The notes below the pieces were generated by a model that made no database searches, had not been told where the DNA came from, and saw nothing but the letters and a program-made list of their open reading frames with translations. From Bacteroidales bacterium (GTDB taxonomy: Bacteria; Bacteroidota; Bacteroidia; Bacteroidales; UBA932): a stretch of 64,000 nucleotides of DNA. The DNA lies in the NCBI GenBank assembly GCA_017631435.1, contig JAGBTG010000056.1, positions 62,001 through 126,000 on the forward strand, in the 5' to 3' direction. Position numbers and translations under genes: made by a program. This document shows, one piece after another, positions 1 through 60,107 of this stretch. Within the stretch, counting starts at the first letter, position 1. The number at the start of each line of letters is the position of its first letter.

Positions 1-2286
1 TTTAGTGAGCGAATTGAAAAGGATCTGTTCATCAAGCCTGTTGAGGAACTCTGGGGTGAATGCCTTTTTAAGGGCTTTCTCAATGATGGCGCGGCTGTTG
101 GCTGCAGTATCGCGTTTGGTGGCGTTTGAAAAGCCCAATCCTTTGCCAAACTCCTTAAGTTCCTTGGTTCCAATGTTGGAGGTTAGGATGAGTACGGTGT
201 TGCGGAAATCAATGTGACGGCCGTTGCTGTCGGTAAGGCGACCTTCATCAAGAACCTGAAGCAGCAGGTTGAAGATGTCGGGATGGGCCTTCTCAATCTC
301 ATCCAACAGCACTACCGAGTACGGTTTGCGGCGTACCCTTTCGCTGAGCTGGCCTCCTTCGTTGTATCCCACATAGCCAGGAGGGGCTCCAATGAGGCGG
401 CTTACGGCATGTTTTTCCATGTATTCGCTCATGTCTATGCGGATGATGCTGTCGGGAGAATCAAACATGTATTGTGCAAGCACCTTGGCAAGCTGGGTTT
501 TTCCTACTCCGGTGGGGCCCAGGAACAGGAAGGTTCCTATTGGCTTGTTGGGGTCCTTTAGGCCGGCCCTGCTGCGCTGGATGGCGCGGGTTACGGTCTC
601 TACTGCCTGGTCTTGGCCAATGATCTTCTCTTTTAGGGTTGCGGCCATTGATGACAGCCTGTTCCCCTCGCTCTGTGCTATTTTGCTAACCGGAATATTG
701 GTGGACATACTTACAGTCTGGGCAATGTCCTCGGCGGTTACAATGGCAGGGGAGGCTGCCTGTTTCTTTTCCCATTTAAGCCTCTCGGCATCAAGTTCTG
801 AACGCTTCATTTTTTCAATGTCGCGGTAGATTGCGGCCTTTTCAAAGTCAGATTCGGCAACAGCCTCATGCTTCTCTGCAACAATTATTTCAATGGCTTT
901 CTCAAGAGTCTGTATCTTCTTGGAAACCTTAATGTTCTTCAGGTGAACGCGGCTGCCGGCCTCATCCATTATATCTATGGCCTTGTCGGGAAGACAACGG
1001 TCTGTTATGTATCTTTGGCTCAAAGCGATGCAGGCATTCAGCGCATCATCTGTGTATATTACGTTGTGGTGTTTCTGGTATCTCTCCTTAATGTTTTGGA
1101 GAATCCACATGGTTTCATCAAAATTGGTGGCCTCCACTATCACTTTCTGGAAGCGGCGCTCAAGGGCTCCATCCTTCTCAATGAACTGGCGGAACTCGTC
1201 CAAAGTGGTGGCTCCAATGCACTGGATCTCGCCACGTGCCAGGGCTGGTTTGAGCATGTTGGCGGCATCCAGAGAGCCTGCCGCGCCGCCTGCTCCAACA
1301 AGGGTGTGCATCTCGTCAATGAACAGGATTATGTTTGGATTTTTGCTCAGTTCGTTGAGGATTGCCTTCATTCTCTCCTCAAACTGGCCACGATACTTAG
1401 TGCCGGCTACAATTGATCCTATGTCCAAGGAAACCAGTCTTTTGCCAAGCAGTACACGTGAGACGTTCCTGTTGGCTATCCTTATTGCAAGCCCCTCTGC
1501 AATTGCAGATTTTCCAACTCCGGGCTCTCCAATAAGCACAGGGTTGTTCTTCTTTCTCCTTCCAAGAATCTGGGCGAGCCTTTCAATCTCCTTCTCCCTC
1601 CCCACAACAGGATCCAGCTTGTCTTCCATGGCTGCCTTGGTGAGGTCAAAGCCAAAACTGTCAAGCACAGGAGTCTTTCCTGCCTGAGGGGCCTTAGGTG
1701 CCTCAATCTTTGCGGCAACAGGGGATTTTTTCTTTTCATGCCGATAATTTTCCATCACTTCATCGTCGGGATGAGCGGCATCAAGTGGATTTTCTCTTCC
1801 CGACAGCCCATTTTGCTCCAATGTCTGGGATGCCTGGTCTGCTCCGTCTTTATCATCGGGAGCAAGGGTGTCCTTAACTTTGCTGTATGTAATTTCCTGT
1901 TGTTCAAGGTATTTTACGGAGTTGCCGTCCTGTGCCCTGAGGATTGCCAGGAAAAGGTGGCTTGCATCGGGTTTTACGCTGTGCATTGAGCGAGCCTCCA
2001 AAAACATCACCTTCAGCGCGTTCTCGCTAGCCTTTGAAAGTGCGAGGGAACCCTCTTCTTCCATTGGAATGGGATCTTTTGCCCTTACGGCATCCTCAAG
2101 GTGTGCCTTAAGCTGGGCAGTATTCACTCCCAACTGTACAAGAGTCTCTACTACAGCGTTTTCCCTATGCCTGAGCATACCCAAAACAAGATGGTCTGTT
2201 GAAACCGTATAGTTGCCCAGTCTCATAGCCTCTTCTTTGGCGTATGCAAGTATGTCGTTAAGTTCGTTGCTCAATTGTGATTGCAT
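1..2286 (-). CDS. clpC: ClpC-type AAA+ unfoldase, C-terminus cut by window edge
   Basis: Hsp100 ATPase that unfolds proteins in the cytoplasm and, in this family, feeds them to ClpP. The visible 762 codons start at an ATG at 2286 and stay open to base 1, so the stop and probably 60-90 residues are missing. In order: a Clp_N double repeat (about residues 1-145), a polar acidic linker, NBD1 with Walker A GEPGVGKS near residue 252, a short middle domain of the ClpC/ClpA kind with no long ClpB coiled coil, and NBD2 with GPTGVGKT near residue 588 followed by IDMSEYMEK. It is divergent from gyrA, with a 124-bp gap. I favour ClpC over ClpA from the N-domain and short middle domain. Two copies of the TCCCGACAG word lie inside it (449, 1798). 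Confidence 0.93.
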
Positions 2287-2353
2287 CTGTCTAAATTTTC
2301 CGCTAAAATAGGTAATTTTGTTTGCGTTTCTTTACCAAGTCAAAAAAAATGCC

Positions 2354-2361
2354 TAAATTTG
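2354..2361 (+). promoter_or_regulatory. -7 promoter element of gyrA
   Basis: TAAATTTG followed by T matches the Bacteroidota -7 consensus TAnnTTTGY and lies about 50 bases before the gyrA ATG. No convincing -33 TTTG was found at the usual distance, so the call rests on the -7 box alone. Confidence 0.5.
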
Positions 2362-2410
2362 TATGTTTTTACCGTACGTGTGTACGGGTCTGTATAATTA
2401 ACAAAAATTT

Positions 2411-4903
2411 ATGGAAATAGACGAGACACAAGGCAGGATACATCAGATCAACATTGAGGATCAGATGAAGAGTGCGTACATTGATTATTCAATGTCGGTA
2501 ATTGTATCCAGAGCACTTCCGGATGTGAGAGACGGCCTTAAACCGGTTCATAGAAGGGTACTTTACGGAATGAGCGAGTTGGGACTTACATCGGGAGGAC
2601 AATATAAGAAATCTGCCCGTATTGTTGGTGAGGTTTTGGGTAAGTACCATCCACACGGTGACTCCAGTGTGTATGATGCTATGGTGAGGTTGGCCCAGAA
2701 CTGGAGCATGAGGTACATGTTGGTTCAGGGTCAGGGTAACTTCGGTTCCATTGACGGAGATTCAGCGGCGGCAATGCGTTATACCGAGGCACGTTTCAAT
2801 GCCATGGCTGAGGAGGTATTGCTTGATCTTGACAAGAATACAGTTGATTTCAGAAATAACTTTGACGATACCCTACAGGAGCCTGTAGTGCTTCCTGCAA
2901 AAGCTCCGCTTCTTCTTTTGAACGGTGCTTCAGGTATTGCTGTAGGTATGGCTACAAATATGGCTCCGCACAACTTGAATGAGATTTGTGATGCCATCAT
3001 AGCATATATTGATGACAATGATATCACAGTTGACGGACTTCTTGAGCATGTGAAAGGTCCTGATTTCCCAACAGGTGGTATCATACAGGGTTATCAGGGT
3101 ATCAGGGACGCGTTTGAAACCGGACGTGGCCGCATTGTTGTAAGGGCCAAGACCGATATTGAGGTGAATGAGCACGGCCGTGAGACAATTGTTGTAACTG
3201 AGATCCCTTACATGGTTAACAAGAGGGAGCTTATTGAGAAGATTGCTGAGCTTGTTGAGGAGAAGAAGATTGAGGGCATTGCGTATGTGAACGACGAGAG
3301 TGACCGTAATGGTATGCGCATTGTAATCAGACTGAAGATGGGTGCTGTGGCAAATGTGGTTCTTAACACATTGTTCAAGTACACTGCGCTCCAGAGCAGT
3401 TTCTCTGTAAACAACATTGCGCTTGTAGACGGAAGACCAAGACTGCTTAACCTAAAGCAGCTTATCAAATACTATGTACGCCACAGACATGAGGTGGTTG
3501 TACGCAGGGCACAGTTTGAGCTGAACAAGGCAGAGGCAAGGGCTCATATCCTTGAGGGTCTGTTGAAGGCTTTGGATGTTCTTGATGAGGTAATTGCAAT
3601 CATCAGGGCTTCAAAGACCGTAGATGATGCAAAACAGGGATTGGTAGAGAGATTCCAGTTCACTGATGCTCAGGCAGCTGCAATTGTGGAGATGAGATTG
3701 CGCCAGCTTACCGGTCTGGAGAAGGAGAAACTTCAGAACGAGTACAATGAGCTTATGAAACTCATCAACCACCTTAAGGATGTCCTTGCAAGTGTTGCCC
3801 TTCAGATGGGCATTATCAAGGATGAGCTTGAGGGCTTGAAGGCAAAATTCGGCGATGACAGAAGAACAGAGATTGTCCCTTCTGCAGACGAGTTCAATCC
3901 TGAGGATTTTTATCCCGACGAGGATGTTGTAATTACCATTTCTCACTTGGGATACATAAAGAGGACCCCACTTAACGAGTACAGACTCCAGAATAGGGGT
4001 GGTGTAGGTGCAAAAGGCAGCACAACCCGTGAGGAAGATTTCATTGAGCACATTTATGTTGCAAACATGCACAGCACAATGATGTTCTTCACCCAAAAAG
4101 GAAAATGTTTCTGGCTTAAGGTATATGACGTTCCTGAGGGAACCAAGACGTCGAAGGGCCGCGCGATACAGAACGTTATCAACATTGAGCCTGATGACAA
4201 GGTTTGTGCATACTTGAATGTTCCTACCTTGAACGATGAGGAGTATATCAACAACAACTACATTGTCCTTGGAACCAAGAGGGGTACCATAAAGAAGACA
4301 TCACTTGAGGCATATTCAAGACCAAGGGTAAATGGTGTAAATGCAATTACTGTAAGGGAAGGTGATGAACTTATGGAGGCTATCCTTACCAACGGCAACA
4401 ATGAGATCCTGATTGCAGGACGAGACGGCAAGTGTGTAAGGTTCAACGAGCAGGATGCAAGGGCAATTGGCCGAACCAGCGCAGGTGTCCGTGGAATCAG
4501 CATTGAGGACGATGATGAAGTGGTTGGTATGATTTGTGTAGATCCATCTTTGGTGGTTGAGCAGAACAGGACTATCCTTGTGGTAAGTGAGAACGGATTT
4601 GGCAAGAAATCTGAACTTGAGGACTACAGGCTCACAAGCAGGGGAACCAAAGGTGTGAAAACACTTAACATAACTGAAAGGACAGGCAAGCTTGTTGCAT
4701 TGAAATCTGTTACTGAGGACAATGACCTGATGATTATCAACAAGTCGGGTATTACAATCAGGGTTGCAGTATCAGATATCCGTGTTGCCGGAAGGGCTAC
4801 ACAGGGAGTGAAGCTGATAAACCTAAGGGAGGGTGACAGCATAGCTGCAGTATGTGTAGTGAACAAGAGCGAGGACAAACCCGCAGAAATAGTTGAAGAA
4901 TAA
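2411..4903 (+). CDS. gyrA: DNA gyrase subunit A
   Basis: Breakage-reunion subunit of DNA gyrase, which negatively supercoils DNA as an A2B2 complex with GyrB. The 830 residues carry the winged-helix region with the catalytic tyrosine in AAMRYTEAR (Tyr124). The quinolone-determining region [12 protein letters not shown] keeps Ser85 and Asp89, so no classical resistance change is seen. The coiled-coil tower and six C-terminal beta-pinwheel repeats follow. The GyrA-box is [10 protein letters not shown], close to forms usual in Bacteroidales. An acidic tail ([10 protein letters not shown]) ends the protein. ParC is the alternative, but the GyrA-box and length favour GyrA. It is followed after 29 bases by a TPR gene on the same strand. 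Confidence 0.96.
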
Positions 4904-6427: not shown

Positions 6428-7195
6428 ATGTCAATAAAGAAGAAAATATCAAAAGGGTTTGTAGTGATTGGAACCATCTTGCTGGTTTCAAGTGTAGTTT
6501 CCATTTATGAGTTCATAAGGATGAGAAACACTGTAGCAAACCTTATTAACGACAATATTTCTGCCATAACCACTTCCCGACAGCTCCTTGAGGTTGCCGA
6601 TGAATATAATTTCAATCTTTTGGAGGGGATGGGTGATGACCATTGGATGCTAAATCTGAAGGATGAGGATGACAACAGGTTCAGTGATCATCTTGCCCAG
6701 GTGCGTGACAAGTTTACAACACCGCAGGAGAGGAGATATGCAGATTCGGTACTGTATGCATATACCAGTTATATATGGATAATGAACGATGCATCAAAAG
6801 TATGGCACGATGACTATTCCGAGAGGAGAAGCTGGTATTTTACAAAACTTCATCCGGTGTACATACAGTTGAGGGGATATCTTCAGAAACTTACCCATAC
6901 GAGTCAGGAGGCGCTGGCAGAAAACTCCCTCACTATGACAGAAAGCTTTTACAGAAGCATCATGCCTGGAGTGGTTACCGTTATGATTGGTATCATCATG
7001 GTGTTCCTGTTCAATTATTTCATCAACTTTTACTTTGTGAATCCTCTTCTGAGAATTTCGGAGGGAATTTCAGACTATATCCTAAGGAAGAAGAGCTACA
7101 ATGTGCTTGTAGAAAATGATGATGAGCTTAAGGTGCTCAACGATAATGTAAAGGAGCTTGTGGAGAGTAACAGGAAACTCAGTAAACGCGTATAG
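6428..7195 (+). CDS. Two-helix membrane protein with HAMP-like region
   Basis: The 255-residue reading from the ATG at 6428 (MSIKKKISK) is preferred over an in-frame TTG four codons earlier. A first transmembrane helix at about residues 9-28 and a second at about 180-203 enclose a mostly helical extracytoplasmic domain resembling four-helix-bundle sensor domains. The cytoplasmic tail (DYILRKKSYNV...DELKVLNDNVKELVESNRKLSKRV) looks like a HAMP segment running into a coiled coil. No kinase or methyl-acceptor domain follows, so it looks like a sensor input without an output domain. It ends 3 bases before trkH and is probably co-transcribed with it, so it may sense envelope conditions for potassium uptake; that role is inference. 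Confidence 0.7.
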   Translation: MSIKKKISKGFVVIGTILLVSSVVSIYEFIRMRNTVANLINDNISAITTSRQLLEVADEYNFNLLEGMGDDHWMLNLKDEDDNRFSDHLAQVRDKFTTPQERRYADSVLYAYTSYIWIMNDASKVWHDDYSERRSWYFTKLHPVYIQLRGYLQKLTHTSQEALAENSLTMTESFYRSIMPGVVTVMIGIIMVFLFNYFINFYFVNPLLRISEGISDYILRKKSYNVLVENDDELKVLNDNVKELVESNRKLSKRV

Positions 7196-7198
7196 GGA

Positions 7199-8644
7199 AT
7201 GAATATCAGTGTAGTTACAAGAAATATTGGCATTGCACTGCTGTTTAACGCTATGTTCATGTTCATAAGCGTTATAGTTTCTGTTGTATATAATTTTGAT
7301 TCTGCATTTTCCCCTTTGCTGCTCAGTGGCGTAATCACTTTTACTACCGGACTCTTTCCGCTTATCTTTGTACGCAAACATGAAGAGATACACATTAAGG
7401 AGGGCTTTACAATCATAGTGCTTTCCTGGATACTTTCGTGCCTGTTCGGTATGTTGCCGTATGTTTTGTGGGGAGGTGAGTTTACCCTTATAAATGCCTG
7501 GTTTGAGAGTGTTTCGGGGTATACTACAACAGGAGGTACAATCCTGCAGGATATTGAGGCGCTGCCAAAGAGCCTGATATTCTGGCGTTCTTCAACTCAT
7601 TTCATTGGCGGTATTGGAGTAGTTGTATTTATGCTCCTTATTCTTCCTATGGTGAGTACATTCAAAATGAGGCTCAGTAAGCTGGAGATGTCTTCCCTTT
7701 CAAAGGAGAACTACAAGTTGAGGACAAAGGAGGCCATAAGGGTTATCTCTACAGTCTTTGTAGGGCTTACAGCCTTGTCTTTTGGCGCATATATGCTTGC
7801 CGGTATGGGGCCGTTTGATGCAATCAACCATGCGTTCAGCGTAGCGGCAACTGGTGGTTTCAGTACAAGAAACGCATCCATAGGGGCTTTTGATTCTTTC
7901 TGGATAGAGTTTGTATCAGTTATATTCATGATAGTTGGAGGTATGCATTTTGGCCTTATCTATGCTACTTTTGCAAAACGTTCAACCAAACTTTTTACCT
8001 CTCCTGTAACCAAGGTATATTTGGGTACTATTGCTGTTGCATCTGTTGTGGTGGCTGTAGACCTTTTTACTTCAAGAGTTGACGGCGGATTTTGGGCAAC
8101 TTTGTGGAACAGTATTTTCAACACTGTTTCGTATATCTCCACTACAGGTTTTGCAACTGTTGATTGCAGTGTATGGCCTCCTCTTTCGGTGCTTATTCTT
8201 ATGTTCCTTTCTGTGCAGTGTGCCTGCTCGGGATCTACGTCGGGAGGATTGAAAACAGACAGGATCATCATTTTCTGGAAGAGTTTCAGGGTGCAGTTGC
8301 AGAAACAGATGCATCCGAGTGCCGTGATTCCGGTGAGGGTGGGTTCTTCAATTGTGGAGAGCCAGTTGGTTTCTGCTGTGCAGCTTTATGTTGTTGTGTA
8401 TTTCCTTTTCCTTTTTGTGGGTGCTGCGGCACTTTGTGCAATGGGAGTTGATTATATGGATGCTTTTTCGGCATCGGTTTCCAATCTGGGCAATGTGGGT
8501 CCCGGTTTCGGTTCTGTAGGTTCTCTGGAGAATTTCTCACAGATTCCTATTCTTGGCAAGTTTGTCCTTTCGGCGCAGATGCTGTTCGGACGTCTTGAAA
8601 TCTATTCATTGCTTATAATGTTCTCAATCTGGAAATGGCGGTAG
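7199..8644 (+). CDS. trkH: TrkH-family potassium transporter, membrane subunit
   Basis: Polytopic inner-membrane potassium-translocating subunit of 481 residues. It has the family's repeated M1-P-M2 units with filter-like strings SGYTTTGGT (about residue 107), AATGGFSTR (about 219) and SYISTTGFATVD (about 314). The last unit reads SNLGNVGPGFGSVG. The usual cytoplasmic NAD-binding TrkA gene is not in this window. The gene starts three bases after the HAMP-like gene and overlaps the following helicase gene by 10 bases, so the three form one transcription unit. Confidence 0.93.
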   Translation: MNISVVTRNIGIALLFNAMFMFISVIVSVVYNFDSAFSPLLLSGVITFTTGLFPLIFVRKHEEIHIKEGFTIIVLSWILSCLFGMLPYVLWGGEFTLINAWFESVSGYTTTGGTILQDIEALPKSLIFWRSSTHFIGGIGVVVFMLLILPMVSTFKMRLSKLEMSSLSKENYKLRTKEAIRVISTVFVGLTALSFGAYMLAGMGPFDAINHAFSVAATGGFSTRNASIGAFDSFWIEFVSVIFMIVGGMHFGLIYATFAKRSTKLFTSPVTKVYLGTIAVASVVVAVDLFTSRVDGGFWATLWNSIFNTVSYISTTGFATVDCSVWPPLSVLILMFLSVQCACSGSTSGGLKTDRIIIFWKSFRVQLQKQMHPSAVIPVRVGSSIVESQLVSAVQLYVVVYFLFLFVGAAALCAMGVDYMDAFSASVSNLGNVGPGFGSVGSLENFSQIPILGKFVLSAQMLFGRLEIYSLLIMFSIWKWR

Positions 8645-10103: not shown

Positions 10104-12281
10104 ATGAGAATAAGAAGATTTTTGTTTTCGGTGGTGCTTCTTTGCTTTGCTGCAGGAGTGTCATCTTATGCGCAGGAGGGGGTAAAAAAGGCCCTAACTC
10201 CAGAGGAACTTATAGGCAGATTGCCTGAGGGGGTGATCAACCAGCTCCCTATGGTTGCAGGATGGAAAGATAATGAGGTACTTAAACTTGCCCAGAGAGA
10301 GGTCCGTGGATTCAAGATGTTTGAGTACAATGTGAAGACAGGTGTGCAGACAGCTGTGGAGAATACTCCAAAAGAGATTGCTCCTGTGCCTGAGGCAATG
10401 GTCAAATTTATGGGGCTTCCCCTTGCAAAAGAGGTGAAGAACCCTACACTTTCACCGCAGGGAGACAAAGTGGCATTTACTGATGCTTCAAACAACTTGT
10501 GTGTGTGGGATGCTGCAAGTGGTGAGGTTAAAAAACTTACCACAGACGGTACAAATGTGATAATGAACGGCTATGCTTCTTGGGTTTATTATGAGGAGAT
10601 TCTTGGAAGACCTTCCAAATACAAGGCTTTCTGGTGGAGCCCTTGCGGCAAGAAGATTGCCTACTACAAGTTTGACGACAGCCAGATTCCCATGTTTCCA
10701 ATCTATGATTCACGCGGCAAGCACGGCTTCATTACAGAGACCCGCTACCCTAAGGCTGGAGACAGAAACCCTGAGGTTAAGATTGCTTTTGTTTCAGTAG
10801 AGGACGGTGCAACTGTTTGGGCAGACTTTGACCATACTGTAGACCAGTACTTTGGAATTCCGTTCTGGAATGCCGACGGCAGCCGTTTCATCATTCCATG
10901 GATGCCACGCGAGCAGAACAATCTTGTACTTTATACCGTTAATCCTGCAGACGGTTCCAAAGATTTCATCTACAACGAGGAGCAGAAGACCTGGATTGAC
11001 TGGATGGAGGATATGCAGTTTGTTGAGGACGGTTTCTTTATGGTGCGTGATTTTGAGATGTGGGAGCAGATCTACTTCCAGTCTTTCGACGGTAAGCGCC
11101 TTGAGAAGATTACCGACGGCAAGAACTGGGGTATCAGGTTCATTAAGGTAGACATGAAGGGTGGTGCAATCTATTTCACTGCCCGCAGGGAGGTTTCAAC
11201 CAGAAATGATTTCTATAAAGTTGATCTTAAAACCAAGAAAATCACCAGATTGTCTTTTGGAGAGTATAATTTTGTAAATGTTTCACTTTCTCCCGACAAC
11301 AAATACTATACTGCACTTTACTCAAATTCAACCACCCCAACCCGTCTGGCAGTTGTGGATGTGAAAAAGGCGCAGAAGGCTTCCGAGGCTAAAGTTGCCC
11401 CTAAGGTGGCATTTGAAAAATCGTCGGGAGTAAAAATACTTGCAGACCAGAAAGGTGAGAAGTTTGATGAGTATAAACTTGCCATTCCTCAGATGCTGTC
11501 AATTACTGTTGACGGTTATGTGCTTCCTGCTCAGGTGATTTGGCCTTTGGATCTTGATTCTACAAAGAAATATCCTGTACTTGTGAGCATGTACGGCGGT
11601 CCTAATGCCGGTACTGTTATGGATACCTGGAAGGGTATTTCAGAGAAGACCCAGTGGTGGGCAAATGAGGGTGTCATTCAGATTGCCATTGACCACAGGG
11701 CCAGCGGACACTGCGGTAAGGAGGGCTTGAACTTCCTTCACAGGAACCTGCTTAACATAGAGCTTGTAGACTACATTGAGTGGATGAAGGAGCTTCATAA
11801 GCTTCCGTTTGTGAACAGGGAAAAAGTTGGTATTACTGGTTTCTCTTACGGTGGTTCAATGACTATGCTTGCCTGCACAGCCGGCAATGATTATTTCAAA
11901 TATGGTATTGCAGGTGGCGGTGTGTATGACTGGGGATTGTACGATACCCACTATACAGAGCGTTATATGGACCGTCCTCAGGATAATCCCGACGGTTATG
12001 CCAACACCAGAATGATGCTGAAGGTTAACCGCTACAAGGGTGATTCTACCAACTACGTGAAGATTACCCACGGTTCTTCTGATGATAATGTGCATATGCA
12101 GAACACCATGCAGCTGATCAATGCTTTGCAGGATGCCGGCAAGCAGTTCGACCTTATGATTTATCCGGGTGAGTTCCACGGCTACAGAGGCAGGAAATCT
12201 GTCCATTCAACCACCGGCGACTACATTTTCTGGTACCGCCATTTGTTGGAAAAGGATGTGCCTGCTGTTCTTGTGAGATAA
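10104..12281 (+). CDS. Dipeptidyl-peptidase IV (S9B family)
   Basis: Secreted serine peptidase that removes X-Pro or X-Ala dipeptides from peptide N-termini. The ATG at 10104 gives 725 residues with a signal peptide (MRIRRFLFSVVLL...SSYAQ); the longer reading starts from TTG. The N-terminal beta-propeller contains the WVYYEEILGRP segment whose paired Glu bind the substrate amino terminus. The C-terminal alpha/beta hydrolase has the nucleophile in GFSYGGS (about residue 577), the acid in GSSDDNVH and the His in YPGEFHGYRG. Length matches the family. It is probably a single-gene unit, starting 50 bases after the helicase and followed by a strong terminator. Confidence 0.93.
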   Translation: MRIRRFLFSVVLLCFAAGVSSYAQEGVKKALTPEELIGRLPEGVINQLPMVAGWKDNEVLKLAQREVRGFKMFEYNVKTGVQTAVENTPKEIAPVPEAMVKFMGLPLAKEVKNPTLSPQGDKVAFTDASNNLCVWDAASGEVKKLTTDGTNVIMNGYASWVYYEEILGRPSKYKAFWWSPCGKKIAYYKFDDSQIPMFPIYDSRGKHGFITETRYPKAGDRNPEVKIAFVSVEDGATVWADFDHTVDQYFGIPFWNADGSRFIIPWMPREQNNLVLYTVNPADGSKDFIYNEEQKTWIDWMEDMQFVEDGFFMVRDFEMWEQIYFQSFDGKRLEKITDGKNWGIRFIKVDMKGGAIYFTARREVSTRNDFYKVDLKTKKITRLSFGEYNFVNVSLSPDNKYYTALYSNSTTPTRLAVVDVKKAQKASEAKVAPKVAFEKSSGVKILADQKGEKFDEYKLAIPQMLSITVDGYVLPAQVIWPLDLDSTKKYPVLVSMYGGPNAGTVMDTWKGISEKTQWWANEGVIQIAIDHRASGHCGKEGLNFLHRNLLNIELVDYIEWMKELHKLPFVNREKVGITGFSYGGSMTMLACTAGNDYFKYGIAGGGVYDWGLYDTHYTERYMDRPQDNPDGYANTRMMLKVNRYKGDSTNYVKITHGSSDDNVHMQNTMQLINALQDAGKQFDLMIYPGEFHGYRGRKSVHSTTGDYIFWYRHLLEKDVPAVLVR

Positions 12282-12408: not shown

Positions 12409-13737
12409 TTATTTCGCTGAAGTGATGATAAGGACCTTCTCACCGTTGTGGAGAGTTACTGCAAAGATATGGTGGGAACCGCCGTCCTTTATTCCCGACA
12501 GCTTTTTGAGGGCATTGGTGTCCATAGGAAAGTTTCTGGCAGTGAAGTCTGCCTTAGGGAACCTTTTGGCAACTTCTTTGAGGCTCTTCTTGTTGAATGG
12601 AATTACTTCTTCTATGCAGAACGTCTTGCCCGGGAAGTCTGCTATTTCTTCATCTGATGTGTACAGATGTGTGCTTACAGCCAATTTCTGGCAACCGTAC
12701 CTCTCTGAAATAAGTTTGTACGCACCCGCTTTGAGCATACCTTTTCCGGGTTCATACAGGTATTTGCCTAAATTGCTTGTATATGTGGCTGTTGCGGATT
12801 CCTCTTCACTTATTTTTATTGTTACGTCGTCTTTTTGTACAATTATTTGATTATCAGTAGATTGGTTTTTTGTATTTGTAAAACAAATCTGGTTTCCATT
12901 TTGTAATGCGTTGATATTATGTTTGTTGTACAAAAGGACGACGTTAATTAAAGGTTCGGATCCGGAGTGCTCGCGGTCGAGCAGGAATAGCAGTTCCTTG
13001 CACTCGTTCTCTACTGTTACAATGTATACGGCACGTGTGTTTGGAAGATATTTAAGGTTCAGCTTTATGTCTGCCATAGGGGAGACCTTTATCAGTACAT
13101 AGCGGCTGATGGCAAACAGATCTTCCTGCAGGTCAATGACATTTGGCTCATAGTCTTGCAGCAGGATGGCCTTGTCGCCTGTGGCGGTGCGCCGGGCAGG
13201 ATCTATGTATACAAGGGAAATCTCTTTCTGTACCAGTTCCTTCAGTACTGCGCACCCGTCTGCTGTAACATCACGGTTGCTTACAATGATGTTGGTGGCG
13301 CCGAGCTGGGAGAAATTGTATTCTGTTGCCTCGCACAGTTCTGTGGTGCGCTCAAAATAATAGTGGGTTGATGCTGCCTGCGAGATAAAGTATGAATCTA
13401 TTCCCATACCTCCAGTTAGGTCGGCTGTTTTGATGCTGCAGGGAGTATCACTGTCGGGAAGATTATTGAAAAGCTCCTTGATTATCCTCTGCTTGAGGAG
13501 TGCTGTAGTTTGGGAACTCCCTTGCTCTACCGAAACAGAAAAAGGGTATGCCAGTGCAAGATTCTCCCACCAGAGAGGTGCCTTTATCTTCATCTTTGCC
13601 CTGGCCTGGATGCACTTGGCGCAAAGTGGCAGATTTACCCCCTCTGGTGCTTTGCCCAGCAGCAGACGGGTTACGTCTGCATTCCCGTTGGCTTTGATGA
13701 ACTCTATGTCTTTTTCTGTAAGCATATCATTTTGCAC
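12409..13737 (-). CDS. THUMP-like domain class I SAM methyltransferase with in-frame palindromic insertion
   Basis: A 442-residue protein resembling the Bacteroidota THUMP-like/class I methyltransferases. It has a helical N-terminus, a SAM-binding motif TADLTGGMGIDSYF (about residue 104), an acidic strand with LVYIDPARR (about 180) and a C-terminal THUMP-like part (YLYEPGKGMLKAGAYK). The substrate is unknown; RNA is likely by analogy. Residues of about 264-306 (INVVLLYN to VQKDDVT) are encoded by a 127-bp inverted-repeat element related to one at 20912-21042, and these residues are low-complexity and Asn-rich. From memory of related proteins, this stretch is absent or much shorter. It lies 21 bases after the MATE gene and is probably in one operon with it. 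Confidence 0.8.
   Translation of the reverse strand: MQNDMLTEKDIEFIKANGNADVTRLLLGKAPEGVNLPLCAKCIQARAKMKIKAPLWWENLALAYPFSVSVEQGSSQTTALLKQRIIKELFNNLPDSDTPCSIKTADLTGGMGIDSYFISQAASTHYYFERTTELCEATEYNFSQLGATNIIVSNRDVTADGCAVLKELVQKEISLVYIDPARRTATGDKAILLQDYEPNVIDLQEDLFAISRYVLIKVSPMADIKLNLKYLPNTRAVYIVTVENECKELLFLLDREHSGSEPLINVVLLYNKHNINALQNGNQICFTNTKNQSTDNQIIVQKDDVTIKISEEESATATYTSNLGKYLYEPGKGMLKAGAYKLISERYGCQKLAVSTHLYTSDEEIADFPGKTFCIEEVIPFNKKSLKEVAKRFPKADFTARNFPMDTNALKKLSGIKDGGSHHIFAVTLHNGEKVLIITSAK
12821..12947. repeat. Palindromic element copy A, inside a coding gene
   Basis: The left arm (12821-12842) is a 22-bp word starting GTTACGTCGTC and ending TTTGTACAA. The right arm (12926-12947) is its inverted, slightly diverged copy. 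The left arm is identical over all 22 bases to both arms of the element at 20912-21042, and the total lengths agree (127 and 131 bp). The interior shares TTGATT and GATT blocks but is otherwise diverged. Length and frame allow read-through in the methyltransferase gene. Confidence 0.7.
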
Positions 13738-22900: not shown

Positions 22901-22944
22901 GATAGTGTATTTTAAGTGTATTAAATTATTCTCCCGACAGTTTT

Positions 22945-43151: not shown

Positions 43152-43173
43152 CTCCCGACAGGAAACTGTCGGG
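43152..43173. repeat. Head-to-head pair of the TCCCGACAG word forming a hairpin
   Basis: TCCCGACAG at 43152-43160 and its reverse complement at 43165-43173 are separated by GAAA, giving a 9-bp perfect stem with a 4-base loop between the small exported-protein gene and nhaD. T residues follow on the plus strand, but no plus-strand gene ends there. Paired recognition words that double as hairpins are typical of uptake sequences in Neisseria and Haemophilus. Confidence 0.8.
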
Positions 43174-43210
43174 AAGAATATATTTTTTATAGGATGTAAA
43201 TTTTATCTTA

Positions 43211-47812: not shown

Positions 47813-48513
47813 AATCCAATAACATTAAATTCCATTCTGCACAAATCCACTGTCATTAATTTTCCCGACAGTTTCTCTCCAAATCCGCAAATCAATTTAA
47901 TGGCTTCATTGGCCTGCAGGGCCCCGATGACCCCTGCACAAGTGCCTATGGCGGGAACTGCTTCAACTGTATGTGGTTCCTCTTGGGGCCACAAATCCCG
48001 CAGTCTCCTGAAGCAGGTGGCATCATTGAATACCGAAACATATCCGCAGAACCCCTCTATTGCCCCATAAATGTACGGTATGGAGAGCCTTTCAGTGATG
48101 TCACTTGCCAGATACCTGGCTTCCATGTTGTCGCATGCGTCAACCACTATATCGTAGCATGAGATTATATTGCTGATTTGTGCAATATTATTGCAGCTTA
48201 TTTTCTCAGCGTATATGTTTATGCACACATCACTGTTGAGTCCCTTCAACCTGGCAGCCGCTGCCTTTACCTTCAATTGCCCAAGGTCTTTCTCTTCATA
48301 AAGCACCTGGCGGTTGAGGTTGCTTTCACTTACACAATCATAATCTGTCAGACCTATTGTACCCACTCCAGCTGAGGTAAGATATAGGGCTACAGGTGAA
48401 CCAAGTCCACCTGCCCCTATAATAAGCACTTTGGCATCCCGCAGTTTCTGTTGTCCATCTTTCCCTATTTCCGGAATGGAAATTTGTCGGGAGTATCTTT
48501 CCATTTCTTTCAT
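47809..48513 (-). CDS. thiF: ThiF-like adenylyltransferase
   Basis: E1-like enzyme that adenylates the C-terminal glycine of ThiS. The 234 residues include the nucleotide loop IIGAGGLGSPVALYL (about 31-45), the arginine motif ESNLNRQVLY (about 65) and DACDNMEARYL. The usual zinc-binding Cys-X-X-Cys after the crossover loop reads CFRRL here, so one of the expected cysteines is missing, and no second CXXC is seen; the protein may not bind zinc. There is no rhodanese domain. It overlaps both neighbours by 4 bases. Confidence 0.85.
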   Translation of the reverse strand: MKEMERYSRQISIPEIGKDGQQKLRDAKVLIIGAGGLGSPVALYLTSAGVGTIGLTDYDCVSESNLNRQVLYEEKDLGQLKVKAAAARLKGLNSDVCINIYAEKISCNNIAQISNIISCYDIVVDACDNMEARYLASDITERLSIPYIYGAIEGFCGYVSVFNDATCFRRLRDLWPQEEPHTVEAVPAIGTCAGVIGALQANEAIKLICGFGEKLSGKLMTVDLCRMEFNVIGL

Positions 48514-51476: not shown

Positions 51477-52361
51477 ATGAAAAGGACCCTAAGGATATTG
51501 TTCATTACAATTGTATCTTTCCTGGTATCTTCACTTGCAAATCATTTGCAGGCTGCAGAAAGGTGCAAGGACTATACATGCATAATAGATGGATTGGAGA
51601 GAAGTTACAAACTTTATCTTCCCAGTGATATAAAGCCCGGGGCCCCACTTGTTTTTGTACTGCATGGTTATGGGGCAAATCCCAATCATGTAGTTGGTAA
51701 AGGCTTTAATGAGGCGGCAGACAGGCATGGGTTTGCTGTTTGCTATCCGTCGGGAACAAAGGATGGAAGGGGAAATCCCTGCTGGAATGTGGGGTATCCG
51801 TTTCAGGAAGATATGGAGGTTGATGACATCTCATTTGTTTGCAAACTTGCCGCCAAACTGCAGAAAGAGCATGACCTGAGCAGGAAAAACACATTTTTTA
51901 CGGGGATGTCAAATGGCGGTGAGATGTGCTATCTGCTGGCTTATTGCGGGCAGAAAACATTTAAGGCGGTTGCTCCAATTGCCGGACTTACAATGGCTTG
52001 GATGCCTGAGAAATACAGGAAACTGAACAAAATTCCGCTTTTTGAGATACATGGAACAGAAGACAGGGTTTCTGAATGGACTGGCGATATGGAAAATAAA
52101 GGGGGCTGGGGGGCATACCTTCCAGTGCCTGAAGCGGTAGATTATTGGGTAAAGGCCAATGGCTGCACCAGAGAGGATATTGTTGAGATCCCGCAAAAAG
52201 ATTCTTGTTCCCACAAAATCATTGCCCATAAATTCTCAGGCAAGAAACGTACCCCTCAGGTTTGGCTATACGAGGTAGTTGGCGGTGTACACTCATGGTT
52301 CAATGAAGATATGGATACCGCTGAAGAGGTTTGCAAGTTTTTCAGCATTTATTTGGAATAG
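51477..52361 (+). CDS. Exported esterase of the PHB-depolymerase/feruloyl-esterase-like family
   Basis: A 294-residue alpha/beta hydrolase with a signal peptide ending LQAAE. It has the oxyanion segment FVLHGYGANP (about 59), the nucleophile in GMSNGGEM (about 143), the acid in HGTEDRVSEW and the His in VGGVHSWF near the C-terminus. This layout is that of LpqC/feruloyl-esterase-like hydrolases acting on plant or polymer esters. The exact ester is unknown. It is divergent from the thi operon and is followed by a DUF1810 gene after 29 bases. Confidence 0.83.
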   Translation: MKRTLRILFITIVSFLVSSLANHLQAAERCKDYTCIIDGLERSYKLYLPSDIKPGAPLVFVLHGYGANPNHVVGKGFNEAADRHGFAVCYPSGTKDGRGNPCWNVGYPFQEDMEVDDISFVCKLAAKLQKEHDLSRKNTFFTGMSNGGEMCYLLAYCGQKTFKAVAPIAGLTMAWMPEKYRKLNKIPLFEIHGTEDRVSEWTGDMENKGGWGAYLPVPEAVDYWVKANGCTREDIVEIPQKDSCSHKIIAHKFSGKKRTPQVWLYEVVGGVHSWFNEDMDTAEEVCKFFSIYLE

Positions 52362-56161: not shown

Positions 56162-58057
56162 ATGAATAGGAGGTTGTGCATACTTTTTTTGGCTGTGATT
56201 ATTGGTACAATGTGCCCTGCAGTGGCATTGTGCCAAGACCGCACCCCTGCACAAGACTCCCAGCCGCAACACACTCTTCCTCATATTCTCGACAGTCTCC
56301 GCCACTATGCCCAGCAGAGGGAGACCATGCAAACGCAGTATGAGGCAAATCTAAAGATAAAATCCCAGGTGGATGTGCTCCACAAGGGTTTTTTCCCAGC
56401 ACTGGTGCCATACCTTAACAGGGCAAAGCTCAGTGAGGGAAGTTTCACACAGCAGTATACTGGTACTCTCAAACACACTGCCCAAGACAGCACCTCAACA
56501 ACACTAACTCCGCTGGATAAGGAGAATAGTCTGATTGTCAAGGAATTTACAGAACACATTACCTCGTTGGCGCAGAATATAAATGTCTATTCGCAGTATA
56601 TCTACGGGAACATATATTCTCCGTTGGCATATCTGTCGGGAAAATACTATGATTTTTCATTGGATTCCACATGGATCCACAATGGCAATACACATTACAG
56701 GATTGTCTTCACTCCTAAAATCAACAATTACAAGTTTGTGGAGGGGTATATTATAACAACCCAAAATGACTGGTCTATAAGGGATATGCATATTGCTGGA
56801 AATATGGAGTTTGGGCAATATTGCAATATTGTGCAGATGGGGGAGCAGGGGAGCCCGTATGAGCATCTGCCATCCCAGTTGCAGGTGAAGTTCAAGGGTA
56901 ACTTCTTGGGAACCAAGATCAATGCGGAAAGCGCCCATGAGTTTGCCTATACCCGCATTGGAGAGCATAATTTTCATCCCGACAGCACATTTTCGCCTCA
57001 GCCCCACCAGGATACTCTCTCCACCAGTTCCACCGGACAGAAAAGGCCTCAAAGAGGATATTTCCTTGTGAAAGACCGCTCCATGAATCTTAATGACAAG
57101 GGATACCTGTATATGGCTCCGCTGGTGAGCCCGCTGCTGTTCCATTACAGCACCAACAGCGGACTGTCGTACACCCAGAAACTCAAATATACACGGCAGC
57201 TCCAACACAACAAACTCTTCAGCATTTCGCCGCTCATTGGCTATAACTTCAAATATAAGGAGTTTTATTGGGCTGTAAACGGCAATTACCTCTATTCTCC
57301 TTCTACTAATGGCAGGATCTTCATTGAGGCCGGGAACGGCGTGCCGCAGGAATTGAGGACGTCGTATGCCAAATTGGGACACACTATAAATATAATGGAC
57401 AATATATCCATTACGGCCACTGCGGCACAGCTGCGTTATACGTGGCACAACAAGGAGGCACATCCTCAAGCAAAGACTTCATTTACTACCTTTGCGCCGG
57501 AGGTTGAGCTTCAGTACAGCAAAAAAGGTTATCCAACCTTTACCCTTGGATATGCCCACTCCATAAAAGGGATCTTTGGCAGCGATGTTGAGTTTGGTAG
57601 GGCGGAGTTTGACATGCAGCATCAGATAGAGGTTGGACCAATGCACTCTCTTACCTACAGGTTAGGGTTTGGATTAGCCATGGATTACAACTATCTCTAC
57701 TTTGTGCAGTTCAAGAACCTTAAAGACAACCACTTGCCTCATGGTTGGGATGATGATATAGGGGGGACGTTCAATCTCCTTTCATCTGTAAAATACCACG
57801 AGATAGACAAATACCTTAGAGCCAATATCCAATACGATGCTCCGCTTCTGCTGGTGCCTACACTCCTTAGAAAGGTAAAATACATCACCCGCGAGCGTCT
57901 GTACTGTAACCTCCTGTTGGTAGACACCATGAACCCCTACCTTGAGATGGGGTACGGCATAGGCACCAATATCTTTAACATGGGAATCTTCTGGGGAGGC
58001 GAGATTGACAAGTGGGATCGCATTGGGGTGAAATTTACATTTGAGATATTCAATTAA
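56162..58057 (+). CDS. DUF5686-like outer-membrane protein, short form
   Basis: A 631-residue exported protein with a signal peptide (ending VALCQD). The C-terminal half consists of barrel-like strands ending VKFTFEIFN, with the line NPYLEMGYGIGTNIFNMGIFWGG typical of the DUF5686 family. Typical members are about 800 residues with an N-terminal carboxypeptidase-regulatory-like beta domain; that domain is missing here, and the protein begins with a helical region. Function unknown. It precedes the DUF1460 gene by 29 bases and may share a transcript. Confidence 0.75.
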   Translation: MNRRLCILFLAVIIGTMCPAVALCQDRTPAQDSQPQHTLPHILDSLRHYAQQRETMQTQYEANLKIKSQVDVLHKGFFPALVPYLNRAKLSEGSFTQQYTGTLKHTAQDSTSTTLTPLDKENSLIVKEFTEHITSLAQNINVYSQYIYGNIYSPLAYLSGKYYDFSLDSTWIHNGNTHYRIVFTPKINNYKFVEGYIITTQNDWSIRDMHIAGNMEFGQYCNIVQMGEQGSPYEHLPSQLQVKFKGNFLGTKINAESAHEFAYTRIGEHNFHPDSTFSPQPHQDTLSTSSTGQKRPQRGYFLVKDRSMNLNDKGYLYMAPLVSPLLFHYSTNSGLSYTQKLKYTRQLQHNKLFSISPLIGYNFKYKEFYWAVNGNYLYSPSTNGRIFIEAGNGVPQELRTSYAKLGHTINIMDNISITATAAQLRYTWHNKEAHPQAKTSFTTFAPEVELQYSKKGYPTFTLGYAHSIKGIFGSDVEFGRAEFDMQHQIEVGPMHSLTYRLGFGLAMDYNYLYFVQFKNLKDNHLPHGWDDDIGGTFNLLSSVKYHEIDKYLRANIQYDAPLLLVPTLLRKVKYITRERLYCNLLLVDTMNPYLEMGYGIGTNIFNMGIFWGGEIDKWDRIGVKFTFEIFN

Positions 58058-58080: not shown

Positions 58081-58086
58081 ATTAAG

Positions 58087-58950
58087 ATGAAAAACATAAC
58101 AAAACTATTTGTTCTGGCACTTGCTCTCTGCCAGATAACATTTGCAAGCCAGCTTTTTGCACAGCAGAGTATGGATGCGCAGAGCAAAGCCAAATACGCA
58201 AAAATTTCAAAAGTGCTCCTTGAGAACAACCACAAAACTGTACCGGAACTCATGGTAATAGCAGCAAAGCAGATGCTTGGAACAGAGTATGTTGCAGGCT
58301 CGCTGGAGCTTGTACCTGAGAGACTTAAGGTATCTTTGGTGGAGACAGACTGCATCCTTTTTGTAGAAACCTGCATGGCAATGGCCATGAATGCAAAGAA
58401 AGGTTATGATTCTCCCGACAGTCTTTGTGCCGCCATACAGCGCACCCGCTACCGCAACGGCATCGTAGACGGTTATGCCAGCAGAATCCACTACACCAGC
58501 GAGTGGATCAGACAAGGAGAGGGGAGAGGTATCTTCAGGGAGATTACCGATGTTTTGAGTGGAGATAATCTGTCGGGACAAAGATTCTCATACATGAGCA
58601 AACACTCCTCTGCGTACAAACAATTGAAAGATAATCCTGCTGAGGTAGCAAGAATCTCCAAAATGGAGGATTATTTAAATTCATTCTCAGACTATTACGT
58701 TATCCCTAAAGCTGTTGTGAACAAGATGGACCACCTCTTGAAAGATGGCGATATCCTATGCTTCAACTCATCTGTAGAGGGGCTTGACATTGCCCATGTG
58801 GCAATTGTTTACCATAACGATAACGGCGAGGTTGGCTTTATCCATGCCTCGCAGGGAGACGGTAAAGTGGTAATTGATGAGAAAAGCATTCACAATTACG
58901 TGAACTCGCGCAAGAGCAATGATGGAATTAGAATTGTAAGGGTAAAATAA
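58087..58950 (+). CDS. DUF1460 family amidase-like protein
   Basis: A 287-residue exported protein with a signal peptide ending FAQQS. DUF1460 proteins have an NlpC/P60-like fold and cleave N-acetylmuramoyl-L-alanine-type bonds. The nucleophile region VETDCILFVETCM (Cys near residue 89), the conserved RTRYRNGIVDGYASRIHYTSEW (about 118) and a His in DIAHVAIVYHNDNG (about 236) are present. It is probably periplasmic and active on peptidoglycan fragments. Its stop codon overlaps the start of the DUF362 gene. Confidence 0.85.
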   Translation: MKNITKLFVLALALCQITFASQLFAQQSMDAQSKAKYAKISKVLLENNHKTVPELMVIAAKQMLGTEYVAGSLELVPERLKVSLVETDCILFVETCMAMAMNAKKGYDSPDSLCAAIQRTRYRNGIVDGYASRIHYTSEWIRQGEGRGIFREITDVLSGDNLSGQRFSYMSKHSSAYKQLKDNPAEVARISKMEDYLNSFSDYYVIPKAVVNKMDHLLKDGDILCFNSSVEGLDIAHVAIVYHNDNGEVGFIHASQGDGKVVIDEKSIHNYVNSRKSNDGIRIVRVK

Positions 58951-60107
58951 TGGAAAAATCAAAAGTTTACTACACCAACCTCCGCTGCAAGCCGGGGGTA
59001 AATCTATTGAAGAAGCTCCGCAACCTTGTTAAGGCTGCCGGAATAGAGCAGATAAATTTTGAGGGCCAGTACACAGCTGTAAAGCTTCACTTTGGTGAGC
59101 CCGGCAACATGGCTTACATCAGACCAAACTATGTTGCCACTGTTGTGGACTTGTTGAACTCCCTTGGAGCAAAGACCTTCCTTACAGATGCCAACACGCT
59201 GTACAAGGGTAGGAGAGACAACGCCGTAGACCACCTTAAAAGCGCTATGGTGAACGGCTTTAACCCAATAGCGGTAAATGCCAACGTAATTATTGCCGAC
59301 GGCCTTAAAGGCACCAACTACGCAGCCATTCCAATTGAAGGGGCAAAATACTGTCCTGCTCCAAAGATTGGCCAGGCAGTTGCAGACGCAGATATTGTAA
59401 TCTCAATCAGCCACTTTAAAGGTCATGAACAGGCCGGATTTGGCGGAGCATTGAAAAATCTTGGTATGGGATGTGCCAGCATTGCCGGCAAGCTTGAGCT
59501 CCACTCATCATCGCAGCCTAAAGTAAACGAAAAGAACTGCATAGGCTGCCGCATCTGTGAGAAAAACTGCAACCACGGCGCAATATCTGTTAATCCCGAC
59601 AGAAAAGCAGTAATTGATTACAGCAAATGTGTAGGCTGCGGCCAGTGCGTAGCCCTTTGCCAATACGCTGCAGCTGTCCTTGCCGAGTGGGATACCTCAG
59701 AGGTGCTCAACTGCAAGATTGCCGAGTACACCAAGGCTGTTCTCCAGGGCAAACCAAACTTCCACATAAGCCTGATTATGAACGTATCGCCTGAGTGCGA
59801 CTGCTGGGGCCACAACGATGTTCCCCTTGTACCGGACCTTGGCATGATGGCCTCATTTGATCCGGTAGCACTGGACCAGGCTTGTGCAGATTTGGTAAAC
59901 AAAGCACCGGTAATCAACGGCTGGCGCAAAGAAGAGGAGCCTTGTTCTTGCGGCTGCAATCATGAGCATGGAGATGCCCAAAGTGCGGGCCACGTCCACG
60001 ATGAACTCTTCAAACATATCCACCCTGATACCGATTGGGAAAGCGGTCTCCAGTACGCCCAGGAGATAGGTTTGGGCAGGAGGGAGTATGAACTTGTAGA
60101 GGTTTAG
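58950..60107 (+). CDS. DUF362 protein with two 4Fe-4S clusters
   Basis: A 385-residue cytoplasmic protein. The N-terminal DUF362 region (LHFGEPGNMAYIRPNY near 49, SHFKGHEQAGFGGALKNLGMG near 153) is followed by two ferredoxin motifs, CIGCRICEKNC (about 197) and CVGCGQCVALC (about 227). A Cys/His-rich string CSCGCNHEHG near 330 may bind metal. DUF362 proteins are redox proteins of unsettled role, found mainly in anaerobes. It starts at the TAATG overlap with the DUF1460 gene, so the two are coupled. Confidence 0.87.
   Translation: MEKSKVYYTNLRCKPGVNLLKKLRNLVKAAGIEQINFEGQYTAVKLHFGEPGNMAYIRPNYVATVVDLLNSLGAKTFLTDANTLYKGRRDNAVDHLKSAMVNGFNPIAVNANVIIADGLKGTNYAAIPIEGAKYCPAPKIGQAVADADIVISISHFKGHEQAGFGGALKNLGMGCASIAGKLELHSSSQPKVNEKNCIGCRICEKNCNHGAISVNPDRKAVIDYSKCVGCGQCVALCQYAAAVLAEWDTSEVLNCKIAEYTKAVLQGKPNFHISLIMNVSPECDCWGHNDVPLVPDLGMMASFDPVALDQACADLVNKAPVINGWRKEEEPCSCGCNHEHGDAQSAGHVHDELFKHIHPDTDWESGLQYAQEIGLGRREYELVEV

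Follow-up and report, generated by a model that had tools for sequence, protein, structure and literature searches.

The window, which is the whole 64-kb stretch of DNA analysed, comes from a gut Bacteroidales bacterium and holds a Clp-family gene running off its start, an AAA_14/DUF4143 ATPase gene (54299-55645) and, between positions 449 and 59602, 25 copies of the nine-base word TCCCGACAG (word A), 18 on the plus strand and 7 on the minus strand (Table 1). This recount matched the original prediction exactly, and in 100 dinucleotide shuffles of the window 25 copies were never reached (mean 0.22, largest 2). The core TCCCGAC was found 52 times against 3.2 expected under an order-3 Markov model, with AG directly following in 25 of these sites, in good agreement with the roughly 50 cores, half continuing with AG, that had been described. 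Five copies are intergenic as judged from the ORF list, the same number as first claimed; the copies at 449 and 1798 were counted as genic, on the assumption that they fall in the Clp-family gene.

Table 1. Copies of the nine-base word and further copies of its seven-base core in the window
Feature	Position	Strand	Basis
TCCCGACAG copy	449..457	-	sequence count
TCCCGACAG copy	1798..1806	+	sequence count
TCCCGACAG copy	6575..6583	+	sequence count
TCCCGACAG copy	12493..12501	+	sequence count
TCCCGACAG copy	13451..13459	-	sequence count
TCCCGACAG copy	14458..14466	+	sequence count
TCCCGACAG copy	18632..18640	+	sequence count
TCCCGACAG copy, intergenic	22932..22940	+	sequence count, ORF list
TCCCGACAG copy, intergenic	24262..24270	+	sequence count, ORF list
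TCCCGACAG copy	27147..27155	+	sequence count
TCCCGACAG copy	27518..27526	-	sequence count
TCCCGACAG copy, intergenic	29395..29403	+	sequence count, ORF list
TCCCGACAG copy	33957..33965	+	sequence count
TCCCGACAG copy	35111..35119	-	sequence count
TCCCGACAG copy	35685..35693	+	sequence count
TCCCGACAG copy	36419..36427	+	sequence count
TCCCGACAG inverted pair, 4-base loop, intergenic	43153..43174	43153-43161 plus, 43166-43174 minus	
TCCCGACAG copy	45860..45868	+	sequence count
TCCCGACAG copy	47863..47871	+	sequence count
TCCCGACAG copy	56633..56641	-	sequence count
TCCCGACAG copy	56977..56985	+	sequence count
TCCCGACAG copy	58413..58421	+	sequence count
TCCCGACAG copy	58570..58578	-	sequence count
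TCCCGACAG copy	59594..59602	+	sequence count
core TCCCGAC	277..283	-	
core TCCCGAC	985..991	-	
core TCCCGAC	1765..1771	-	
core TCCCGAC	3913..3919	+	
core TCCCGAC	8239..8245	-	
core TCCCGAC	11291..11297	+	
core TCCCGAC	11423..11429	-	
core TCCCGAC	11987..11993	+	
core TCCCGAC	17369..17375	+	
core TCCCGAC	17681..17687	-	
core TCCCGAC	19985..19991	-	
core TCCCGAC	22553..22559	-	
core TCCCGAC	24617..24623	-	
core TCCCGAC	25515..25521	+	
core TCCCGAC	25775..25781	-	
core TCCCGAC	27601..27607	+	
core TCCCGAC	31770..31776	-	
core TCCCGAC	34437..34443	+	
core TCCCGAC	39541..39547	-	
core TCCCGAC	43511..43517	+	
core TCCCGAC	45886..45892	-	
core TCCCGAC	48486..48492	-	
core TCCCGAC	51749..51755	-	
core TCCCGAC	61256..61262	+	
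core TCCCGAC	63041..63047	+	
core TCCCGAC	63305..63311	-	
core TCCCGAC	63799..63805	+	

Genome-wide abundance and strand distribution

The whole 2.17-Mb genome carries 485 copies of TCCCGACAG versus 17 of the reversed-word control, which bears out the proposal of a genome-wide recognition word; most of the uptake-word properties tested are present. Enrichment of the word is about 100-fold, with one word about every 1.3 kilobases over the source genome. In A-word samples the mean core-to-core distance is 1.3–1.5 kb, the spacing of cores is about random (CV 0.89–1.10), and words are spread over contigs without long gaps. We looked for a gene-end bias of the word and found none. Some inverted pairs exist, but a hairpin-terminator role was set aside, as close pairs showed no visible excess over the spacing expectation: the three convergent and three divergent pairs within 30 bp in G000 are, by estimate, about what a 1.3-kb spacing predicts.

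From the 18:7 skew in the window, a polar role such as that of Chi or of a chromosome-orientation signal had been suggested. The skew is local, however, as the split over the whole genome is 231:254. In G034, a complete relative sampled as 21 stretches of 20 kb with the leading strand assigned from GC skew, the leading:lagging ratio of the word was 70:100, equal to that of anagram controls (1158:1647). Strand polarity is therefore absent over the source genome as a whole and, beyond composition, from the G034 stretches sampled, and the very strong replichore polarity of the KOPS type was found in neither, which rules out Chi/KOPS-like polarity as a genome-wide feature.

The word had also been described as missing from a transferred ATPase island. 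The ATPase gene indeed contains zero copies of TCCCGACAG, but the core-free gap over it (51749 to 56635, 4.9 kb) ranks only third in length among the gaps in the sampled portion of the contig, where the longest is 5.6 kb, so the gap is not exceptional by itself and a depletion at this gene was dropped. In G034, one of the two word-poorest of the 21 stretches (L137) is devoted to polysaccharide synthesis, and the other (L139) is a restriction-modification region with sugar genes behind it. Their word scarcity fits depletion in acquired DNA, an observation that we do not rely upon because both are low in GC.

Motif consensus and codon independence

The source-genome motif is longer than the nine-mer and reads approximately TnnTCCCGACRR, the G000 motif being derived from 294 cores in 431 kb. 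On the 5′ side of the core, T occupies −3 in 80% of sites, −6/−4 are T-rich and −1 is a pyrimidine in 75%, consistent with the T or C in a pyrimidine-rich run noted at the outset; on the 3′ side, a purine is found at +7 in 98% and at +8 in 90%. At non-coding sites (n = 34) the fraction with T at −3 is 0.91. The consensus of the seven-base core in G000 is strong, with an excess of 283 perfect copies versus 8 summed over all 21 single mismatches, and the same comparison for the core plus the two purines behind it gives 260 versus 88. In raw counts of the G000 nine-mer, single mismatches (179, of which 113 fall at the last two positions) outnumber perfect copies (112). The consensus is weaker in G034, where the perfect excess is 169, the single-mismatch excess is 87 and T at −3 reaches only 51%. 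Between sites, shared sequence is small beyond the near flanks, which speaks for an origin by mutation rather than by copying, and the copies fall in multiple frames and in intergenic DNA, as those of uptake words do.

A codon, dipeptide or composition artefact could produce such a word, and Pro-Asp is the commonest genic frame, accounting for 132 of the 155 sense cores. Synonymous shuffling, however, yielded 18.8 genic cores against the 260 observed and 2.1 genic nine-mers against 88 (in G034, 1.1 against 103). Among Pro codons CCC is used least, yet CCCGAC writes 140 of 336 Pro-Asp pairs; in both A genomes compared, the density of the word in intergenic DNA equals or exceeds that in genes, and A cores are missing at the same sites in species carrying another word (see below). 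The artefact is refuted here, and we give it virtually no chance. The original prediction had held that codon bias alone is insufficient and that the word falls in several reading frames, and had named a frequency near the codon-shuffled level as evidence against itself; the frequency lies far above that level, and the word is confined neither to one protein motif nor to one frame.

Dialects and site turnover across the genus

Testing relatives, as had been proposed, revealed that the word or a dialect of it is common among related species. Across 39 genomes of the genus, word A is present in 13, word B (ATCGCYGAG) occurs instead in 11, the palindrome TATCGCGATA is dominant in one (G012), and none of the three is dominant in 14. 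Minor palindromic forms occur elsewhere, including in G034 and B genomes, while words A and B themselves are asymmetric, and word B has little consensus beyond its nine bases. On a ClpB tree, the five B species form one clade (support 99/99), and the words of different clades exclude one another. By our reading, the dialects look pseudo-palindromic and half-site-like. A milder word excess was seen in genera g19 and g20. Two other candidates were dropped: GCATCTGAAC in G014 is a local repeat, as all 29 copies lie inside one 14-kb contig, and a possible dialect in G061, from another genus, had 6–8 copies in 48 kb and gained none from an extra 20 kb.

We compared orthologous sites in two regions located by ClpB-family matches, in which counts are of directed species pairs and hence not independent. 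Sites are maintained between close species: among six of these, the core persisted at 184 of the 327 sites compared, versus 720 of 3920 for anagrams. The B species had an A core at 0 of 249 corresponding sites (anagrams, 276 of 3975). Between the close A group and G034/G001, which carry the same word, 0 of 51 sites were common (anagrams, 25 of 685), and this lack of shared sites despite a shared word is what drive would produce, unlike a function tied to particular sites. Turnover is incomplete in places, since the close A species and G002 share 8 of 40 sites (anagrams, 11 of 501). Between B species, 116 of 276 B-word sites were kept, a rate scarcely higher than that of three control words (0 of 4, 6 of 16 and 24 of 76), so that maintenance is shown for A only. 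There was no sign of in-place conversion of A into B (0 of 260 versus 31 of 5200 at random positions); a weaker form gave 5 of 260, all at one site, versus 59 of 5200.

Proposed self-recognition in DNA exchange and alternative readings

The DUS of Neisseriaceae are words of about 10 bp in hundreds to thousands of copies whose dialects follow phylogeny, with a one-base insertion in the wadDUS dialect and two dialects in one genome (PMC3630211). The words described here resemble them in high copy number, shortness and several dialects in relatives, and differ in sequence and phylum, in palindromic variants, in the type IV pilus ATPase not being found and in that the uptake role is our inference. 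The USS of Pasteurellaceae have a 9-bp core with AT-rich flanks, two clade-wise types, a density near one per kb and an unusually strong consensus (PMC1626085), and a gene-end bias has been reported for them (PMC2346458). Core and flanks, clade-wise types, a density close to one per kb and, for the seven-base core in G000, a strong consensus recur here, whereas the sequence differs, G000 flanks lie mostly 5′ of the core and the words lack that bias. Palindromic forms are atypical of DUS or USS, and inverted pairs are frequent for DUS.

We judge the chance to be slightly better than even that the word forms the central part of a DNA-uptake-type self-recognition sequence with dialects, spread by biased exchange. 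A sequence-specific DNA-binding part of uptake or of transformation-linked recombination would prefer TnnTCCCGACRR DNA, and in sister clades the same preference would apply to other words. Word-bearing kin DNA would be taken up and recombined more often, and molecular drive would therefore let the word accumulate in all places where the encoded protein permits it, with positions turning over while the word itself stays. The agent would thus be DNA uptake or exchange, presumably with one reader per species. ComEC and DprA are each present in 38 of 39 genomes, those lacking a dominant word among them, and so do not track the word. For the ATPase of type IV pili and type II secretion (PF00437), none of the 39 genomes had a match over the cut-off and 31 gave weak matches below it, so that the putative reader would be of a new type, unlike the pilin-type receptors of Neisseria, where the minor pilin ComP binds DUS as receptor (PMC3868556, PMC12061091). 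In Riemerella, also of the Bacteroidota, transformation is described as needing ComEC, DprA, ComF, RecA and four function-unassigned proteins (PMC8459023). We found no report of competence for the genus, which is represented by assemblies only.

A methyltransferase acting with biased mismatch repair, as proposed for cyanobacterial HIP1 and alternate HIPs, could also create the enrichment, though we consider this unlikely. Each alternate HIP has a matching methyltransferase and about one site per 1000 nt (PMC4390886), and the density near one per kb, the other words in relatives and the palindromes of G012, G034 and the B genomes all recall these. Neither word A nor word B is a palindrome, however, the A flank is conserved out to −6, and the five B species placed on the tree cluster as a single clade, unlike the sporadic alternate HIPs; within the C5 class, the one searched, a methyltransferase (PF00145) was found in 13 of 39 genomes, and among the 13 that carry word A only 3 have one. 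Somewhat less probable again is a word that AddAB reads as a recombination signal in the manner of Chi. The word is short, over-represented, on both strands and spread over contigs, and PDDEXK_1 nuclease genes were over the cut-off in 38 of 39 genomes, several with a second PDDEXK_1 frame about 3–4 kb off that suggests an AddAB-like pair. Yet the nuclease is also present where no word dominates, the word changes inside one genus, G034 has no polarity beyond its anagram controls, and an enrichment of this strength is far above the level known for Chi. Binding by an abundant chromosome-organising or segregation protein, which we hold to be more doubtful still, would suit the lack of long gaps and the half-site look that we read in the dialects; against it stand the roughly random spacing, the absence of polarity, the complete exchange of one word for another inside one genus and the strong G000 core consensus, regulatory-protein sites usually being relaxed (PMC1626085).

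For the favoured uptake-type reading, a broader proposal, which we advance tentatively and at a little under even confidence, is pilus-independent, sequence-specific DNA exchange in gut Bacteroidales, with at least three dialects in this single genus (TCCCGACAG, ATCGCYGAG and TATCGCGATA) from related inverted TCS/SGA half-sites and a putative reader whose specificity drifts quickly enough for sister clades to become genetically isolated. Genome-wide uptake self-recognition words are known only from two proteobacterial families, both with type IV pili. Were HIP-like repair drive responsible instead, this would be the first HIP-like word with clade dialects known outside cyanobacteria. If the uptake-type reading is true, sequence-specific DNA exchange would have evolved again, with a new reader, in a Bacteroidota genus lacking the pilus ATPase, and natural transformation of gut Bacteroidales, and with it the genetic isolation of gut species, would become directly testable.

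Excess and shape of the word

On recounting, the window held 25 exact copies of the 9-mer TCCCGACAG (18 plus, 7 minus), the same figures as in the original prediction, versus 0.22 in dinucleotide shuffles. Its core, TCCCGAC, which had been put at about 50 copies, was seen 52 times versus 3.2 expected under an order-3 Markov model. An order-3 Markov scan of the 9-mers present 8 times or more ranked TCCCGACAG as the most over-represented in the window; other over-represented words there were CCTTAAGG (14, 2.2 expected), GTATTTTAC (10, 0.8 expected) and TGCGTACA (11, 1.6 expected). The whole source genome, G000, an 88% complete assembly of 59 contigs totalling 2.17 Mb, carries 231 + 254 copies on its two strands, and 7 + 10 of the reversed word. 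The claim that the word goes beyond codon bias was borne out by synonymous shuffling of genes called by a simple longest-ORF rule: G000 genes contain 260 cores versus a mean of 18.8 (largest of 20 shuffles, 26) and 88 nine-mers versus 2.1, and genes of the relative G034 contain 103 nine-mers versus 1.1. As predicted, the core falls in several reading frames, with all six frame-orientation classes represented and Pro-Asp most frequent; CCCGAC encodes 140 of 336 Pro-Asp pairs, despite CCC being the rarest proline codon. Under the same gene rule, the nine-mer was denser outside genes than within them, by a factor of 2.3 in G000 and of 2.6 in G034.

We aligned 294 cores from 431 kb of G000 (the window and 20 fetched stretches), and the full motif is about TnnTCCCGACRR. 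Upstream of the core, T occurs at −3 in 80% and at −6 and −4 in about 50%, with a pyrimidine at −1 in 75%; downstream, a purine occupies +7 in 98% and +8 in 90%, and the remaining positions carry at most 0.13 bits. Wider flanks are unrelated among the 294 cores, which argues against a copied repeat, and T at −3 is not a reading-frame effect because it is present in 0.91 of 34 non-coding sites. The G034 flank differs, with T in 70% at −6 and 51% at −3, and G at +8 in 94%. TCCCGATA is likewise over-represented (50 versus 5.9 in G000, 40 versus 5.1 in G034). Consensus is strong for the G000 core, where the perfect form has an excess of 283 versus a summed 8 for the 21 single mismatches; with two purines behind, the excesses are 260 and 88. 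The corresponding G034 values are 169 versus 87, and 172 versus 141 with the purines. For the G000 9-mer, single mismatches (179, of which 113 lie at the last two positions) outnumber the 112 perfect copies.

Dialects and turnover of sites

Elsewhere in the genus, 12 of 38 genomes are clearly enriched in TCCCGACAG, with 75 to 717 copies where controls give 6 to 21; together with G000 we call these A genomes. Milder excesses occur in G019 (54, control 13), G014 (46, control 23), G030 (33, control 15) and G005 (30, control 1). Samples of low-word genomes were scanned for replacement words in two rounds, of 6–40 kb and 34–140 kb. ATCGCYGAG turned up in G032, G004 and G003. Counted across the genus, it is abundant in 11 genomes, the B genomes, at 274 to 817 copies versus 5 to 20 for controls, and no A genome has more than 34; its density outside genes is slightly below that inside in G032 and G004. 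The G012 sample yielded a palindrome, TATCGCGATA, with 30 strand-wise counts (15 sites) versus 0.6. The 10-bp palindrome ATCGCGATA, each site of which is counted twice, numbers 360 in G012, which additionally has the B word (83, control 2). Palindrome counts in the 11 B genomes run from 99 to 224, and those of eight A genomes from 0 to 2. No word was found in the G008 sample, and the G014 candidate proved to be a local repeat, not a dialect. By the three word tests, no word dominates in 14 of the 39 genomes, some of which have intermediate counts (G023, 88 B and 135 palindrome; G037, 84 palindrome). G034 has further words, TCGCGACAG (43) and TCACGACAG (20) in 440 kb; of the 43 counts, 12 come from 6 sites of the 12-bp palindrome CTGTCGCGACAG, and GTCGCGAC was seen at 13 sites. 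In our view, a pair of inverted half-sites around TCS/SGA can be recognised in every dialect, ATCGC-Y-GAG having one extra base.

Beyond the genus, the next highest TCCCGACAG count among 395 genomes of the phylum (G000 and 394 others) was 95, in the 4.1-Mb genome G523 (control 14). Within the family (199 genomes, including 20 from this genus), TCSCGACA exceeded its control 8- to 16-fold in G000, G001, G009 and G034 and 2- to 7-fold in other A genomes. Certain genomes from other genera fall within this lower range (g20: G203 6.7-fold, G212 4.9-fold; g19: G220 4.0-fold; some of g3, g9, g15, g16 and g22, 2- to 3-fold); related or older dialects are thus possible in g19, g20 and other genera of the family. 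Samples of 3 to 48 kb from other genera gave no convincing word, those of G203 (4.7 kb) and G220 (7.1 kb) being too small to count against one there; G056 (g19) had 11 cores in 26 kb versus 2.5 expected.

In a midpoint-rooted tree of the single gene ClpB from 21 species, the five sampled B species form one clade (99/99), and two pairs that lack a dominant word, G030/G019 and G037/G029, fall in separate clades. A genomes lie on both sides and so are not one clade; the placement of G002, on a long branch, is uncertain. In codon alignments of two regions, six close A species kept cores in 184 of 327 directed comparisons (same-letter anagrams, 720/3920), versus 0/249 from A to B (276/3975) and 0/153 toward five species without a dominant word (200/2548). 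B words were kept among B species in 116/276, little above three control words (0/4, 6/16, 24/76), which leaves maintenance demonstrated for the A word alone. No B word lay at any of 260 A-word positions; random positions gave merely 31/5200. Shared sites between the close A group and other A genomes were 0/51 for G034/G001 (anagrams 25/685; one-way, the reverse direction having zero testable sites), 0/42 for G009 (38/539), 6/50 for G017/G021 (61/623) and 8/40 for G002 (11/501). Words are thus retained over short times and sit mostly at other places over long times, G002 being an exception that shares some, which suggests selection on having the word, not on its places.

What may drive the word

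The 18:7 strand skew in the window had been taken to fit a polar role such as Chi or chromosome orientation. That did not extend to the genome: strands are balanced in G000 (231 + 254), and in 21 stretches of 20 kb from the single 2.23-Mb contig of G034, with the leading strand taken from a noisy GC skew, cores split 70:100 leading to lagging, the same ratio as 119 CpG-bearing anagrams (1158:1647). No Chi- or KOPS-like polarity was seen in either set. A PDDEXK_1 nuclease occurs in 38 of 39 genomes. In 11 of the 13 A genomes its best match is unbroken; the match is cut near position 150 in the A genomes G034 and G001 and in 9 of 10 matched B genomes, the unbroken exception being G013. This may point to an AddAB-like protein whose form roughly follows the dialects, or may simply reflect phylogeny. 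The cyanobacterial HIPs share density and replacement words with the present system, but they are palindromes with an associated methyltransferase (PMC4390886). A C5-methyltransferase was found in 13 of 39 genomes, 3 of the 13 A genomes among them. Since most assemblies are incomplete, single gene absences mean little.

Uptake words offer the closest parallel. As reported, the DUS dialects of Neisseriaceae track phylogeny, one form having a one-base insertion and one genome two dialects (PMC3630211), and the USS of Pasteurellaceae is described as a 9-bp core with AT-rich flanks that occurs nearly once per kb and whose consensus is unusually strong (PMC1626085). The present word resembles such words in copy density, flanks, dialects and the lack of polarity, and in G000, less so in G034, also in the consensus of its core. 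It differs in that gene ends are not favoured and inverted pairs are not visibly in excess, and on the pilus test, where no T2SSE ATPase exceeded the cut-off in the 39 genomes (31 weak matches lay below it). ComEC and DprA each occur in 38 of 39. The open frame holding the ComEC match is 575 aa long in G000 (479 aa when counted from its first ATG) and 357–479 aa in other matched genomes; full-length ComEC is longer than these frames. Transformation of Riemerella, also of the Bacteroidota, is reported to require ComEC, DprA, ComF and RecA and four further proteins described as lacking homologues in known transformation machineries (PMC8459023), and tonBA or tonBB mutations are reported to inhibit it (PMC8383284); a route without a pilus is therefore not far-fetched.

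Located features in fetched stretches of the genus
Stretch	Genome	Positions	Feature
L012		91–1530	ComEC match
L139	G034	544–10700	RhuM-family protein, trypsin-like protein, Eco57I/TaqI-type methylase; 5-kb stretch with no ORF of 100 codons called; 0 copies of TC[CG]CGACAG
L117	G014	whole 14-kb contig	GCATCTGAAC ×29 in a regular pattern

As a whole word on either strand, TCCCGACAG was not found in 5.39 million papers of the open full-text literature, and no title or abstract among the matches listed described such a word in Bacteroidota; subscription papers and preprints lay outside both searches. The genome-wide word system with dialects is real and strong and, to our knowledge, undescribed. 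An uptake-type drive is its best reading, one to which we give roughly even chances, and a HIP-like drive and Chi follow.
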